The translations under genes and the position numbers were made by a program. Below are positions 2,608-18,169 of a DNA stretch of 33,951 nt, one piece after another. The notes beneath the pieces were generated by a model. It was given only the letters and a program-made list of their open reading frames with translations. It was not told the DNA's origin and did not search any database. Source of the stretch: an uncultured Roseburia sp. (GTDB taxonomy: Bacteria > Bacillota > Clostridia > Lachnospirales > Lachnospiraceae); assembly GCA_947383215.1 (NCBI GenBank), contig CANDCP010000033.1, positions 1 to 33,951 on the forward strand, read 5' to 3'. The number at the start of each line of letters is the position of its first letter. Within the stretch, counting starts at the first letter, position 1.

Positions 2608-5422
<2,815 letters not shown>

Positions 5423-5431
5423 CTATCCGCC

Positions 5432-5456
5432 AAAAACGGAGGCCTTTAGACCTCCG
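5432..5456 (-). terminator. Terminator after the SH3-domain gene
   Basis: A 6-bp perfect stem CGGAGG/CCTCCG (5456-5451 and 5442-5437) with an 8-base loop is followed by five T on the minus strand. It sits between the SH3-protein stop codon and the rluF start, so rluF transcription must read through it or begin within it. Confidence 0.7.
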
Positions 5457-5469
5457 CATTTTCTTTCTG

Positions 5470-6732
5470 TTATTTTAAAAACTCTGTCTTAACAAATCCT
5501 GTCTGTCCGTTCCACTCTACCTTGGTCCAGCCTTCCGCATAACTCATAATTACGGTGACTGTCTCGCCGGTAAACGCCGTTCCGATTTTCTGGGCATCCT
5601 CTCCCATCGAAGCCCGCACATTCACCGTATTGGAAAGCGTAATCTTCGTTCCCTCCGCAACTCCCGGCGCATCGTTATTCTCCTGCGGCTCTTGCTTTGC
5701 CGGCGCCTCTGTCGATACAAATTCGCTTTTTACATAAACTTCCTGACCGTTATATTCCAGCCTGCTCCAGCCGTCCGACGTCGTACCCGTCCTGGTGAGC
5801 GCCGTGCCCGCCGGCACCGTATCCACCAACTGGCCGTCCGCGCTGGCCGATGCGCGAATATTCAAGGTATCCAGGGCATACACAATCTCCGACTCGTCAA
5901 GCGGCTGCTCTGTGTTTGTCTGCGTTTCCGTCTCCGGTTCCTCCTGCTGCTGCGTTTCCGTCTCCGGTTCTTCCCCGTTGCCCGCCTCCGCAATCTCCTT
6001 GGCCCATGCGGCATATGCGTCCGCAATCGTGATATCGATCATCGTGCGCAGCTTCTCGTCCGACGCAAGCGCGTCTTCGTATTTCTTCTGTACGTCTTCG
6101 CGCAGTTTCACCACATCTTCTTCCTGCTCAAAACGGTCAATCCGCGTTTTTATCTCATTGTCCAGCTCTTTCTCCTTATTCTGCAGATTGAACTGGCTGT
6201 ACAGATTGTTAATATAAAGCCCGCCGTCCTCGTCTGTGGATACGTAGAAGAAGTCCAGTCCCGGCGCGAGCGTGTCCACATCCTTAAACTTGATCTCAAG
6301 ATATACGGATACGAGATAGGAACCTTTTTCAAGTCCCTCTTTTGTGTAACACTTGATATTCTCGTAGCCGTCTACGTTCTCCGAAAACATTTTTATAAAA
6401 CTTCTCTCATTCTTTGTCACGGGAGAAGCGTAATTCCTGATTTTCTTCGTCTTTCCCGCCGCATAGGCGCTATAATAATTCTGAATCAGCTCATTTAATT
6501 CCGGAATGGCGTCCACCTGATATTTTTCCGCGGCAAGTCCCGCCTCGCCCACTGCCTCGGTTCCCTCGCCGCTCCCCCCGGAGTTTGACCCGGTAAAATT
6601 GGCCAGTACCAAGATCAATGCCAAAAGCAGCGCGCCTCCCGCAATATAGCGGATATTCTTTTTTACAAACTCCAGTATTTTATCTATCGAAAACCCTTGC
6701 GGGGTCTTATCATTCAATTCCGGTGACTTCAT
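5470..6732 (-). CDS. Membrane-anchored protein with NTF2-like region and two SH3 domains
   Basis: I do not recognise a named gene. A cytoplasmic N-terminus of about 28 residues is followed by one membrane helix (IRYIAGGALLLALILVLANF), so the rest should be outside the membrane. Residues of about 80-185 (ELIQNYYSAYAAGKTKKI onward) resemble an NTF2/SnoaL-like alpha-beta domain. A charged helical region and a Glu/Thr/Gln-rich linker (repeated PETETQ) lead to two bacterial SH3 domains, starting at LNIRASASADGQ and VNVRASMGEDAQ. Such SH3 domains usually bind cell-wall peptides, so a wall-sensing or wall-anchoring role is plausible. AGGAGG lies 9 bases before the ATG. Its promoter carries the upstream 22-bp element also found before xerD. 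Confidence 0.85.
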   Translation of the reverse strand: MKSPELNDKTPQGFSIDKILEFVKKNIRYIAGGALLLALILVLANFTGSNSGGSGEGTEAVGEAGLAAEKYQVDAIPELNELIQNYYSAYAAGKTKKIRNYASPVTKNERSFIKMFSENVDGYENIKCYTKEGLEKGSYLVSVYLEIKFKDVDTLAPGLDFFYVSTDEDGGLYINNLYSQFNLQNKEKELDNEIKTRIDRFEQEEDVVKLREDVQKKYEDALASDEKLRTMIDITIADAYAAWAKEIAEAGNGEEPETETQQQEEPETETQTNTEQPLDESEIVYALDTLNIRASASADGQLVDTVPAGTALTRTGTTSDGWSRLEYNGQEVYVKSEFVSTEAPAKQEPQENNDAPGVAEGTKITLSNTVNVRASMGEDAQKIGTAFTGETVTVIMSYAEGWTKVEWNGQTGFVKTEFLK

Positions 6733-11458: not shown

Positions 11459-12064
11459 CTAGAATATCTTCAATATCCCTTTCATAATCCCCGGATTCAG
11501 ATATGTCTCCGACAAGATACCCAAAATCAGCAGAACCGCCGCCAGCGCGCAGGAGATCAGATATCCGGCCCAACGCCCGTGCCGCCGGTCTGCCAGAGCC
11601 CGGCCTCCTTTCGCGTGCAGCCGCTGCTGTGCGAAAAAAAGGATCAGATACAGCATAACGTAAGACAAATACTGCGGAACAAGCGATAAAACAACAAGCA
11701 AAATACCCTTGACGCCAAGATTGCTGATGCCTGAGACAAACAGAAAACCGAGCGCTCCCCCGTTCCACATCACGAACAAAACGTGCGCAAGATACCACAA
11801 TTCAGTAACTCCCAATACGGCAAGAAACAGAAACACCGGCGCGCGCGTCTCTAAAATATAGAGAAACAGATCGGTATAGCTGATACTGGAATACTCAAAC
11901 TGCTTCAAAAAATATACGTTGAATATTCCATAATCCAAGAGCCGTTTGCTTCCGCTGAGATTCGCCAAAAGTATGCCAATAAAAAAAGAACCGAAGAAAA
12001 GATATTTCAGGCAGCCTTCCCCTGTTATCCTCCTTGGTTCCGTTTGAATTCTTTTTTTTCCCAT
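11459..12064 (-). CDS. spoIIM: Stage II sporulation protein M (SpoIIM)
   Basis: SpoIIM is a mother-cell membrane protein that holds the SpoIID-SpoIIM-SpoIIP peptidoglycan-degrading complex during engulfment. About five hydrophobic helices are visible. The segment from HVLFVMWNGGALGF through GVKGILLVVLSLVPQYLSY has the Gly-rich turn and the Pro-Gln motif common in this family. At 201 residues it is close to the roughly 210 of Bacillus SpoIIM. I chose the ATG at 12064, preceded by AAGG; an in-frame TTG at 12070 lacks room for a ribosome site. The order Nudix-spoIIM-xerD matches Bacillus, which supports the call. It is likely cotranscribed with the Nudix gene 23 bases upstream. Confidence 0.75.
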   Translation of the reverse strand: MGKKRIQTEPRRITGEGCLKYLFFGSFFIGILLANLSGSKRLLDYGIFNVYFLKQFEYSSISYTDLFLYILETRAPVFLFLAVLGVTELWYLAHVLFVMWNGGALGFLFVSGISNLGVKGILLVVLSLVPQYLSYVMLYLILFFAQQRLHAKGGRALADRRHGRWAGYLISCALAAVLLILGILSETYLNPGIMKGILKIF

Positions 12065-12087
12065 GCACAAACCTTGTCTGAAAACGT

Positions 12088-12699: not shown

Positions 12700-12829
12700 G
12701 CGAAACAAAAAAATAAGATATTTGATGTTTGTGAATTTTTTTTTAAATTTTCTCAAAAATTATTTAAATTTACGCTTTCGCAATAGACACTTTTTATTTT
12801 ATGTAATATTATTATTTTTGTCGACACAC

Positions 12830-12860
12830 TGAATATTTTTGGTAAATACTGATCATTTTA
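12830..12860 (+). promoter_or_regulatory. Sigma-G/F-like (forespore) promoter of the amidase-deacetylase gene
   Basis: TGAATA (12830-12835), an 18-base spacer and CATTTTA (12854-12860). This fits the forespore consensus of a gnATA-type -35 box and a CATnnTA -10 box. The implied 5' leader is only about 15 bases and includes the GAGGG ribosome site. No comparably good sigma-A promoter is seen next to it. Confidence 0.55.
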
Positions 12861-12881: not shown

Positions 12882-14468
12882 ATGAATTCCAGAAAAAAGA
12901 AAAAAAGAATACGAAACGCGGTCTGTATCACAATCTGTCTATTGCTGCTTCTTGTAACACTTTTTATTATCCAGCTACTAACCGGAGCGCTCGGTAAATT
13001 TATCAAGGTTCCGGAACCGATCAACAACGCAATTGACAAATTAAAGCAAACCGAAACGCAGAATCCGAATAAAAACGACACCGAAACGCCTTCCGAGGCG
13101 GATTCTTCTTTGTTTACCGTCTGCATCGACGCGGGACACGGCGGAAAAGACATCGGCTCCGATTCCGACGGCCGAATCGAAAAGGACGACAACTTAAAGC
13201 TTTCATTGGCGGTGGAAGCCTATCTGAAAGAAAAAAACGTCAAAGTTGTTATGACGCGCTCTGACGATACCTTCTTAAAGCTATCCGCACGGTGTAAGGT
13301 TGCAAACGATGCAAACGCCGATTACTTTGTATCCCTTCACCGCAATAAGGGGGAAGGCTTCGGCGTGGAAACCTGGATATTAAGCCAGGCGGACGAGGAG
13401 ACAAAGACGCTCGCCGACAATATTATGAGCGGCCTGGAAACCGCCGGAATACAGCGAAACAGAGGCGTAAAACAGGGAACGCAGGGGAACTCCTCCAAAG
13501 ATTATTATATCAATTTAAATTCGCAGATGCCGTCCTGCATTATTGAACTTGGCTTTTTAAATGTCCCGGAGGACAATCAGCTTTACGACGAACATCTCGC
13601 AGACTACGCAAAAGCGATCGGCGACGCCATTATTAAGACAGCGGAAGCCTACAATGTATCCGGCGTTAAAACAGACGGCAGCGATAAAAACAATATTCCT
13701 GACGCGAATACCGAAGACGCAAGCGGCCTGCCTTCTACTTCGCACACGCTTAACAATACGCAGATCGATATTTCCTCACTGGATACTACGATTCTCGACT
13801 GGGGTCAGGGTTCTAACGTAGACGATCAGAACCGCCCGGGGGGCTGTCTGCAGTATCAGGAGAAATACGGCAAATACAACGCGCATTTTATCTCTGAAGG
13901 AGAAAAAATTATCTATCTGACTTTTGACGAGGGATATGAGTACGGCTGTACGCCTTCTATTCTCGACACGCTGAAAGAAAAGAATGTAAAGGCCGTATTC
14001 TTTGTCACCCAGCCTTATGCCAAAGAAGATCCGGATCTGGTGCAGCGCATAATTGACGAGGGACATATGCTCGGGAACCACAGCGTCACACACCCTGCTA
14101 CCGGCCTTCCTTCCCAGACCGTAGAACAGCAGCAATCCGAGATTATGGACAACCATAATTATATCAAAGAGAACTTTGGCGGCTATGAAATGCATCTGTT
14201 CCGCTATCCTGCCGGCAAATTCAGCGAGCAGTCTCTTGCAATTTTAAATAACTGCAATTATAAAAGCGTATTCTGGAGCTTTGCCTATCTGGATTACGAC
14301 GTAAATAACCAGCCGAATGAAGCGGAAAGCCTGCAAAAACTGATTGACAGATTACATTCCGGCGCGATTTACCTGCTCCACGCGGAGTCAAAGACAAACA
14401 CCGCGATTCTCGGAGACTTTATTGATCAGGCAAGGGCGCTTGGATTCGAATTTGCCTTATTCGACTAG
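12882..14468 (+). CDS. Bifunctional CwlD-like amidase / PdaA-like deacetylase fusion (muramic delta-lactam synthesis)
   Basis: This protein joins two spore-cortex enzymes. Residues 11-37 form a signal anchor, so the catalytic part is outside the membrane. Residues of about 78-256 are an Amidase_3 domain with zinc ligands H86 (DAGHGGKD), E100 (RIEKDD) and H153 (SLHRN) and catalytic E222 (IIELGFLN). A Ser/Thr/Asn/Asp-rich linker of about 60 residues follows. Residues of about 325-528 are a NodB-type deacetylase of the PdaA subgroup, with D349 (TFDEGYEYG), H400 and H404 (GNHSVTHP), R441 (FRYPAG), the PdaA-like FWSFAYLDYDVNNQP and H500 (LLHAESK). CwlD removes the peptide from muramic acid. PdaA then deacetylates it and closes the lactam. 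A sigma-G-like promoter precedes it. The substrate is inferred from the families. Confidence 0.9.
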   Translation: MNSRKKKKRIRNAVCITICLLLLLVTLFIIQLLTGALGKFIKVPEPINNAIDKLKQTETQNPNKNDTETPSEADSSLFTVCIDAGHGGKDIGSDSDGRIEKDDNLKLSLAVEAYLKEKNVKVVMTRSDDTFLKLSARCKVANDANADYFVSLHRNKGEGFGVETWILSQADEETKTLADNIMSGLETAGIQRNRGVKQGTQGNSSKDYYINLNSQMPSCIIELGFLNVPEDNQLYDEHLADYAKAIGDAIIKTAEAYNVSGVKTDGSDKNNIPDANTEDASGLPSTSHTLNNTQIDISSLDTTILDWGQGSNVDDQNRPGGCLQYQEKYGKYNAHFISEGEKIIYLTFDEGYEYGCTPSILDTLKEKNVKAVFFVTQPYAKEDPDLVQRIIDEGHMLGNHSVTHPATGLPSQTVEQQQSEIMDNHNYIKENFGGYEMHLFRYPAGKFSEQSLAILNNCNYKSVFWSFAYLDYDVNNQPNEAESLQKLIDRLHSGAIYLLHAESKTNTAILGDFIDQARALGFEFALFD

Positions 14469-14471
14469 ACG

Positions 14472-14510
14472 CAAAACAAAAAATCCGGCTCTGCCGGATT
14501 CTTTGTTTTG
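14472..14510. terminator. Terminator hairpin 1 after the amidase-deacetylase gene
   Basis: The core stem AATCCGGC/GCCGGATT (14482-14489 and 14493-14500) is extended by CAAAACAAA/TTTGTTTTG. T-rich tracts occur on both strands, so it may also end the opposing gene at 14571-15164. Confidence 0.8.
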
Positions 14511-16062: not shown

Positions 16063-17451
16063 TCACTTTGTTTTAGAAACCAGCATCATGATGATCAACC
16101 GGAAAACATGATTTTGGCATTCAATAGAGACATCGCCATAATATTTTTGCGCCACTTTTTGTATATTGGCAAGCCCAAATCCATGCCGCCCTGCGTCTTT
16201 CTTTGACGTCGCCGGAAATCCGCTCTCTTCGTCCCGGACAAGCTCGCCCGTATAACTGTTTTTTACCTCTATCAGACAAACATTTGCCTTTCGACAGGAA
16301 GAAATCTCAATAAAGGCCTCCGCCGTTCCCTTTGCGGCCTCTACCGCATTCGCAAGCGCGTTGTTCAATATCACGCTGATATCAAAGACGTCGATGCCCA
16401 TCTCCCTCTGAAAATAAAAATCACATTTAAAGTTTATGCCGGCTTCTTCCGCTTCCTTTTGCATCTCTGACAGGATTACATCCGTGACCGGATTCCCGCT
16501 CTTTATTCCTGACGCCGCCTCCGTAAACTTTTCCCTGAGCCTCGCGGCATAGCAAATGGCAGCTTTATTTTCGTTCCTTATGCAAAGTCCCTCTAAGGTC
16601 ATGATATGATTCCCCATATCGTGACGCAGGCTCTGCATATCGCTATAAAGCCGCTCTACCTCGCCGATATGTCTTTTCATATCTGCAATCTGTCCAAAAA
16701 GAACCTCATTCTGCCGCTCTTCTCTCTGCCTGTTTTTTATCCCCTGAAACAACGCAATCATCGTTAAAATTACGACGAAACAAATTCCATAATATAGAAA
16801 ACAACGCCAGTTATATGCCAGATTAACGTTGTACGCATCTCTTGCCGTGTCTTGTTCATACACACGAAAACAATAAGACAGAAGCATATTTCCCGCCATA
16901 CCGGACAGCGACGGAATGCATAAAATCACCATCTCCCTGCCGGTCATTTTTTCCTTTTTATATACGTACGCCTTATGGATAAGCCACACAGGAAACAGCA
17001 GAAATCCCATACTCAATATCAAGTCTGTTACACAGCTTATCACATAAATCCAAAACTGCAGCCTAAAGTTTCCGGCAAATCCGGCAATCTTATAAGAATA
17101 ATGATAGAGAAGCGCATCTATACAATTCTCCATTTGAAGCGAAATCCGGCGCAGAACAAAAAAGGTAACCGAAAGGAACATCTTTTGTTTTCTGTTCTCC
17201 GGTTCCATACTTGACATTACAAGAAACGCCGCAATGACCCCAATCCCGTATGCCATATTGTTTTCAATTTTCCACGGTACATAATAAAGAAGCGTCATCA
17301 CGGCAAAGTAAGCGAGTTCCGTCATCAGAACCGTTTTTTTCTTTGCAAAAAACGGCTTTAAAAAATATCCGAAGCAATATGAGGTCAGCAGCGTAATTCC
17401 CAGAAACTGCAGATTACTCACAATTTCGTAATATAAATCATAACTCTTCAT
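16063..17451 (-). CDS. Sensor histidine kinase, AgrC/HPK10 type (GHKL)
   Basis: This is a membrane sensor kinase of the quorum-sensing-like AgrC/ComD class. The N-terminal 235 residues contain about six hydrophobic helices and no classical extracellular sensor domain. A short coiled coil leads to the phosphorylated histidine H277 in SLRHDMGNH. The ATPase part has the N box (ILNNALANAVEAA, about 361-373) and the G box (GRHGFGLANI, 421-430). The ATG lies 4 bases after the stop of the LytTR regulator upstream, so the two genes form one operon and almost certainly one signalling pair. No AgrB or signal-peptide gene is visible, so the ligand is unknown. Confidence 0.9.
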   Translation of the reverse strand: MKSYDLYYEIVSNLQFLGITLLTSYCFGYFLKPFFAKKKTVLMTELAYFAVMTLLYYVPWKIENNMAYGIGVIAAFLVMSSMEPENRKQKMFLSVTFFVLRRISLQMENCIDALLYHYSYKIAGFAGNFRLQFWIYVISCVTDLILSMGFLLFPVWLIHKAYVYKKEKMTGREMVILCIPSLSGMAGNMLLSYCFRVYEQDTARDAYNVNLAYNWRCFLYYGICFVVILTMIALFQGIKNRQREERQNEVLFGQIADMKRHIGEVERLYSDMQSLRHDMGNHIMTLEGLCIRNENKAAICYAARLREKFTEAASGIKSGNPVTDVILSEMQKEAEEAGINFKCDFYFQREMGIDVFDISVILNNALANAVEAAKGTAEAFIEISSCRKANVCLIEVKNSYTGELVRDEESGFPATSKKDAGRHGFGLANIQKVAQKYYGDVSIECQNHVFRLIIMMLVSKTK

Positions 17452-17455
17452 ACCG

Positions 17456-18169
17456 TCAAAATACCTCTGTGCCGTGAATATATTTAAGATAACGCTTTAC
17501 AAACTCCCGATAATTTTTTTGGGCCATAAGCGCGGTCCCTTTTTTTAAGTATATCATAGATTTATCATACTTCACGACATATTTAAAATGAACCAGATAC
17601 GCCCTGTGCGGCCGAAAAAAATCCTCTCCCGCCATTTCTTCAAGCGCGCGCATCCTTCCGTAATACTCGAGATCGCCGTCAGTTTTATGCAGAATAATTT
17701 TACGGTTATATACTTCCGCGGATATAATATCCGCAAGCCTTATCTTGACATATGTCCCGCCGACCTTAATCATCAGGCTTTTTTCTTTTTCCTCCTCTTT
17801 TATCGAAGAAACCTCCAGATACTGTTCTACTGCTTCCGCTAACACGGCGGCAAATTTTTCCTCCGTAAACGGCTTCACAAGATATTGAAACGCCCTCACA
17901 TGAAACGCTTCAAAAACATGCTCTTTTAGAGCCGTCACAAAAATAAGCACCGTCCGTTTGTTTCTTTTGCGCAGTTCTCTCGCCGTCTCCATCCCGTCTC
18001 TGCCCCTAAGTCCAATATCCAGCAACAGAATATCCGGCTGACGCTCACATAAAAGCAAATCTTCGCCGGAACAAAAAAGCTCTATCTCAGCCGACGGGTA
18101 ATATTTATGCACGCCATCCCTCAGCATGTCGCGCACAGCTTTTTCATCGTCGCATATCGCTATCCGCAT
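17456..18169 (-). CDS. LytTR-family response regulator
   Basis: This is the partner of the kinase downstream. The receiver domain (1-125) has the acidic pair D7-D8 (ICDDEK), the phosphorylated D51 (ILLLDIGLRG), T79 and K99 (YLVKPF). The C-terminal LytTR DNA-binding domain (about 130-235) has IRLADIISAEVYNRKIILH and FFRPHRAYLVHFKYV. The ribosome site AGGAG lies 8 bases before the ATG. LytTR proteins usually bind two short direct repeats spaced by helical turns. Two copies of TACAACA(T/G)AAA lie 28-40 and 93-106 bases upstream of this gene, 66 bases apart, so autoregulation is plausible. Confidence 0.93.
   Translation of the reverse strand: MRIAICDDEKAVRDMLRDGVHKYYPSAEIELFCSGEDLLLCERQPDILLLDIGLRGRDGMETARELRKRNKRTVLIFVTALKEHVFEAFHVRAFQYLVKPFTEEKFAAVLAEAVEQYLEVSSIKEEEKEKSLMIKVGGTYVKIRLADIISAEVYNRKIILHKTDGDLEYYGRMRALEEMAGEDFFRPHRAYLVHFKYVVKYDKSMIYLKKGTALMAQKNYREFVKRYLKYIHGTEVF

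Follow-up and report, generated by a model that had tools for sequence, protein, structure and literature searches.

B. subtilis and C. difficile each use separate enzymes to produce muramic delta-lactam. In the accounts given by PMC10116595 and PMC12444981, PdaA works only on peptide-free MurNAc, which it both deacetylates and cyclises, and PMC12444981 describes the lactam as a spore-only modification. In both species, pdaA is listed under sigma-G (in PMC3416734 and PMC3789822).

In the window analysed here (33,951 nucleotides, positions 1 to 33,951 of contig CANDCP010000033.1 in assembly GCA_947383215.1, from an uncultured Roseburia sp.), an amidase and a PdaA-like deacetylase are joined in a single chain. 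The sequence-only reading had proposed a CwlD-like amidase and a PdaA-like deacetylase fused into a candidate synthase of the cortex lactam. Our literature search, in which papers were sampled in part, found no report of such an amidase-deacetylase fusion.

An amidase and a deacetylase in one reading frame

The open reading frame at 12882-14468 on the forward strand encodes 528 amino acids in a single uninterrupted frame (protein P0001), with a basic N-terminus ahead of a hydrophobic anchor. The features of the gene and its flanks are as follows.

12784..12812, + strand: sigma-A-like promoter candidate, TAGACA-17-TATTAT; the same box lies 5' of the copies in G205 (L176) and G204 (L178)
12831..12860, + strand: sigma-G-like candidate, GAATA-18-CATTTTA, by consensus; the first -10 letter is different in the 91% orthologue
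12882..14468, + strand: fusion gene for a membrane-anchored Amidase_3 plus PdaA-like NodB deacetylase, 528 aa (open frame, Pfam, full-length orthologues)
12915..12989, + strand: hydrophobic N-terminal anchor, about residues 12-36 (by eye from the sequence; helix 2-38 in the model)
13119..13634, + strand: Amidase_3 domain, residues 80-251, outside the CwlD branch (Pfam, residues, tree, Foldseek)
13659..13733, + strand: disordered linker, residues 260-284 (pLDDT below 50 in the model)
13746..14462, + strand: PdaA-like CE4 deacetylase half, about residues 289-527 (Pfam, NCBIfam, residues, tree, Foldseek)
14482..14500, + strand: terminator-like hairpin, then a T-rich tail (consensus match only)

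Pfam assigns residues 80-251 to Amidase_3 (E 1.1e-40) and residues 340-462 to Polysacc_deac_1 (E 5e-32), and the two-domain fusion proposed from the sequence is thereby confirmed. All residues named for the two active sites lie at the positions given for them. The amidase site is complete (H86, E100, H153 and E222), as is the deacetylase site (D349, H400, H404, R441 and H500), with E350 beside D349. An AlphaFold2 model built from 14 sequences has a mean pLDDT of 79.7 and a pTM of 0.50. By these values it shows two well-formed domains and no defined placement of one against the other. The final amidase helix stops at residue 256, pLDDT is below 50 across residues 260-284, and the alignment with B. 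subtilis PdaA begins at residue 304; the linker thus spans at most about 47 residues and is probably shorter than the 60 first estimated. A 91%-identical full-length copy is present in G205, and full-length copies of 63-65% identity occur in G201, G203 and G204, which rules out an assembly or frameshift artefact.

Relationship of the two halves to CwlD and PdaA

Based on the CwlD model TIGR02883 (NCBIfam), the amidase half scores 93 bits, below the curated cut-off of 221.55, a strict threshold above which a match occurs in only 14 of the 200 genomes of the family sample. A tree of 57 amidase domains took in 26 of the 71 free amidases and represented CwlD by L001 of the window's genome and seven proteins from other fusion genomes; in it the eight CwlD split from the 23 fused amidases at 99/95 and in 100% of 200 bootstrap trees. 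The residues H86, E100, H153 and E222 are kept in all 23 fusions. The best Foldseek match of the amidase half is C. difficile 4rn7 (TMt 0.87), followed by CwlV (0.86), LytH (0.83) and CwlD 7rag (0.80). As a description of this half, CwlD-like is valid only as far as the common Amidase_3 fold.

The deacetylase half stands closer to its proposed namesake. PdaA (TIGR02884, NCBIfam) is its best family model, at 218.8 bits, below a curated cut-off of 298 that is strict, any match above it being found in 25 of 200 family genomes. Fused deacetylase halves and free-standing genes form one clade, which we call FT, at 100/99 and 100/100 in trees of 75 and 81 domains; in both trees this clade is sister to the PdaA that those genomes also encode. 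When two other CE4 sequences of the genus are taken for comparison, FT falls within the PdaA-like group (100/100); sequences under 14 prefixes (long-branch, degenerate or near-identical) were omitted from that tree. The first motif is mostly TFDEG or a near variant in FT, TFDNG in B. subtilis, and mostly TFDCG or TFDAG in PdaA of the family. Thus, the original identity holds in part: the deacetylase half is nearest to PdaA, in a sister clade and under the cut-off, and the amidase is not CwlD.

CE4 is a broad family, the window's clade member scores under the PdaA cut-off, and E350 stands where B. subtilis PdaA has N. These points would suit a deacetylase half that confers lysozyme resistance by acting on GlcNAc or other wall sugars, without involvement of the amidase. 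We consider such a role very unlikely, since no other family model comes close to PdaA and the best structure match is also a PdaA, 1w17 of B. subtilis, which aligns with a TMt of 0.89.

The genome that contains the window, of 2.86 Mb and with a stated completeness of 99%, carries spoIVA together with a separate CwlD on C15 (223 bits) and a separate PdaA on C6 (300.6 bits), both above the curated cut-offs. The supposition that the fusion is itself the CwlD and PdaA pair is not supported. A separate CwlD of at least 203 bits was present in all 23 fusion genomes found, which rules out the fusion as a replacement for CwlD. A separate PdaA was present in 15 of the 23, namely in 15 of 18 with an intact deacetylase half and in none of five with a degenerate one; for G201, G203-G205 and G484-G494 this was judged by P0001 searches alone, from 36-41% matches to the deacetylase half.

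These counts bear on the possibility that the protein makes the muramic delta-lactam of the spore cortex with its one chain, either alongside CwlD and PdaA or in their place. We regard this as possible but unlikely, in view of the separate CwlD in every fusion genome, the separate PdaA in most genomes with an active fusion, and an amidase half that lies outside the CwlD branch. The order of the domains fits the pathway, spoIVA is present in 23 of 23 fusion genomes, and no separate PdaA was found in three of the 18 active-fusion genomes, G177, G082 and G485, the first two of which are given as 100% and 96% complete. In these three genomes the cortex step may be a further task of the fusion.

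Distribution, degenerate fusions and promoters

Among the matches listed, the fusion was found in at least 23 distinct genomes, 18 with an intact and five with a degenerate deacetylase half; these genomes are related, so counts over them are not independent. It occurs in five of eight genomes of the genus, all eight of which have separate PdaA-like genes. The sequence-only reading would have been refuted by separate cwlD and pdaA combined with a lack of the fusion among close relatives; the separate genes are present, and so is the fusion in close relatives. In a sample of 200 family genomes (at most seven candidates per genome scored), at least eight have the fusion and at least 24 have the FT clade. 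A contig scan placed the fusion at 13 of at least 80 loci among the matches listed, under titles of Roseburia, other Lachnospiraceae and, once, Clostridiales. In the order sample of 295 genomes, at least 75 gave a match with an E value no higher than 1e-50 (at most five candidates per genome scored); outside the genome of the window, every such match is confined to the deacetylase half.

In the deacetylase tree the fused label needs four changes, of which the starred branches force at least two. L042 lies beside the degenerate fusions in this tree (100/87), but the amidase tree groups it with the active ones (99/97). The free FT genes L050 and L051 are nested in the main fused clade, a position that would be explained if they had lost their amidase portion. 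Unfused neighbours of both types also occur. At L048 (G197), an amidase gene (4254-5144) and a PdaA-like deacetylase gene (5226-6275) are adjacent with a gap of about 80 bases; this deacetylase has Thr at the base Asp position, and spoIVA was not found in G197. At L139 (Clostridium guangxiense), a PdaA-like gene (4794-5705) is followed 20 bases on by an unfused amidase gene (5726-6517), whose best family is CwlD at 148 bits, below the cut-off.

Across the 200 family genomes, spoIVA is present in 127 of 130 genomes with CwlD and 8 of 70 without it, and in 79 of 81 with PdaA and 56 of 119 without it. For the FT clade, told apart from other PdaA in this sample by comparing P0001 and TIGR02884 scores, the figures are 17 of 24 with and 118 of 176 without (p=0.82), which is no link. 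The fused members of the sample all occur with spoIVA (8/8, p=0.056), and among genomes with only free FT members 7 of 16 are without spoIVA. Neither spoIVA nor CwlD was found in six free-FT genomes (G043, G068, G075, G089, G168 and G197), which argues against a cortex role. In favour of that role, a separate PdaA is less frequent among the 135 spoIVA-positive sample genomes with FT (6/17) than among those without (73/118, p=0.06). In the order sample beyond the family, most FT-like carriers have spoIVA, and the link between FT and spoIVA may be stronger outside the family. Separately, 45 of the 135 spoIVA-positive sample genomes showed neither a PdaA of at least 233 bits nor a fusion-type deacetylase, and 43 of these 45 have CwlD.

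The deacetylase residues are complete in 18 of the 23 fusions. In the other five, H404 and H500, a zinc His and the late His, are lost and the deacetylase half is still recognisable. These degenerate fusions, which form one clade in the deacetylase tree (100/98), are the following.

L044, 4872-6545
L045, 5117-6754
L047, 4647-6452
L085, 4683-6437
L088, 3301-5007

Four of the five degenerate-fusion genomes (G181, G098, G158 and G491) have a separate FT gene with intact motifs; none was found in the fifth, G494, and a second FT gene was not found in any of the 18 intact-fusion genomes. In the degenerate line, the catalytic task looks to have moved to the free copy, and the old domain to have been retained for some other purpose. 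This sub-clade suggests that two functions are separating again.

The window's sigma-G-like box matches a sigma-G consensus, GHATR/CATNHTA, at 11 of 11 positions. We discount the box, since two of its -10 letters depart from the consensus of PMC3416734 and the 91% orthologue has another letter at the first -10 position. Shuffled sequences served as the background for scoring upstream regions, in later tests with consensus strings from PMC3416734; the split tests omit the near-copies L176, L179, L082, L083 and L087, as well as L043, a locus at the very beginning of its contig. The first test, over 20 fusions, gave z 4.8 for sigma-A and 3.5 for sigma-G. Upon splitting, five degenerate fusions gave 6.8 for sigma-A and 3.1 for sigma-G, and 12 active fusions gave 1.2 and 1.5; a class-wide sigma-A and sigma-G signal of the fusions was lost in this way and has been dropped.

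With the consensuses of PMC3416734, the 12 active fusions stay between z -0.3 and 1.0 for sigma-E, F, G and K, which is no signal, and their sigma-A signal is not clear either (z 1.2), which makes the window's sigma-A-like box weak as a class signal. The same strings gave z 4.8 for sigma-E and 5.0 for sigma-G upstream of eight CwlD genes, matching the E and G control of cwlD reported for B. subtilis in PMC3416734. Eighteen PdaA genes gave 4.7 for sigma-E and 2.3 for sigma-G, 16 free FT genes had no clear upstream sigma signal, and the five degenerate fusions gave 6.1 for sigma-A and 1.8 for sigma-G. The predicted promoters mark the intact fusions neither as spore genes nor firmly as vegetative, and the missing sporulation-sigma signal of the active fusions is a further point against a cortex synthase.

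The strong sigma-A-like promoters of the five degenerate fusions (z 6.8 and 6.1), their retention of a deacetylase half without H404 and H500, and the nearness of the fused amidase fold to LytH would together be consistent with a vegetative amidase for cell separation or wall remodelling, comparable to other Amidase_3 autolysins, whose C-terminal CE4 domain mainly binds or positions glycan, with a catalysis that is secondary and can be lost. However, every catalytic residue checked is kept in 18 of 23 fusions, and the intact free clade member in four of five degenerate-fusion genomes suggests that the activity is still wanted. We therefore judge this explanation unlikely.

In the window, the fusion is divergent from a run of nudix, SpoIIM-like and XerD-like genes. 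The SpoIIM-like membrane protein (11459-12070, - strand) lies between the nudix gene and the XerD-like recombinase and scores 47.9 bits against a cut-off of 100.2; a SpoIIM-like gene is also near the fusion copies of G205, G204 and G201 (L176, L178 and L179). Ten neighbour proteins from four more distant loci were searched against Pfam, and nine matched, none of them to a sporulation family. At 16063-18169 (- strand) the window also holds a pair formed by a probable sensor kinase (no NCBIfam match) and a LytR-type response regulator.

Proposed role and comparison with known systems

All fusion genomes have a CwlD, and most of those with an intact fusion also have a separate PdaA, which points, with chances evenly balanced, to a wall other than the cortex. 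From the evidence above we infer what each half does and in which order, which wall is the target and what is made. Our best explanation, to which we give an even chance, is an anchored two-step peptidoglycan editor that works beside the cortex pathway and is not the main cortex lactam synthase. The amidase half would take the stem peptide off MurNAc in the nearby wall, and the PdaA-like half, on its short flexible tether, would then deacetylate the bare MurNAc and may cyclise the product to muramic delta-lactam. This would be a second pathway, most likely aimed at the vegetative, septal or germ-cell wall.

Since PdaA is described as needing peptide-free MurNAc (PMC10116595), the attached amidase would give the chain a logical order, and the succession of amidase and PdaA-type deacetylase fits the reaction order known from that source, as the sequence-only reading had proposed. 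With a non-CwlD amidase of its own, the deacetylase would be independent of CwlD. GerS is described in PMC8496864 as unique to Peptostreptococcaceae, so a GerS partner is not expected here. Against the two-step editor stand the presence of spoIVA in every fusion genome, the three active-fusion genomes in which no separate PdaA was found, the nearby SpoIIM-like gene, the window's sigma-G-like box, the sigma-G signal of the first test and the want of a clear sigma-A signal in the active fusions. It seems to us quite unlikely that the protein is a self-sufficient, anchored muramic acid or delta-lactam synthase outside the cortex, with a descendant pseudoenzyme line in which the domain would position glycan or regulate.

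A natural single chain that exists beside the standard enzymes could be used to test whether the lactam or bare muramic acid occurs elsewhere in the wall of gut bacteria. In addition, it might serve as a single protein with which to produce cortex-like glycan in vitro.

Among known systems, CwlD (TIGR02883; C. difficile 7rag) resembles the amidase half in its Amidase_3 fold, membrane anchor, and zinc and catalytic residues. The fused amidase differs in its low score to the CwlD model, in its separate branch and in having a true CwlD beside it in the same genome; moreover, CwlD genes show a sporulation-sigma signal, whereas the active fusions as a class do not. The nearest solved folds to the fused amidase are C. 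difficile 4rn7, Paenibacillus CwlV 1jwq and S. aureus LytH 7tj4, and unlike the fusion these solved chains are without a deacetylase domain. B. subtilis PdaA (TIGR02884, CE4; 1w17) shares with the deacetylase half its fold, base Asp, two zinc His, Arg and late His. The fused half is 37% identical to it, has E350 where PdaA has N, carries an attached amidase, and belongs to a clade separate from the PdaA of its own genome. A further comparison is with SwsB, which we take to be YlxY of B. subtilis. This PdaA relative is presented in PMC12444981 as a monofunctional lactam cyclase that acts on muramic acid and has Asn at the base Asp position; the fusion keeps the Asp, so deacetylation would be expected of it, unlike SwsB.
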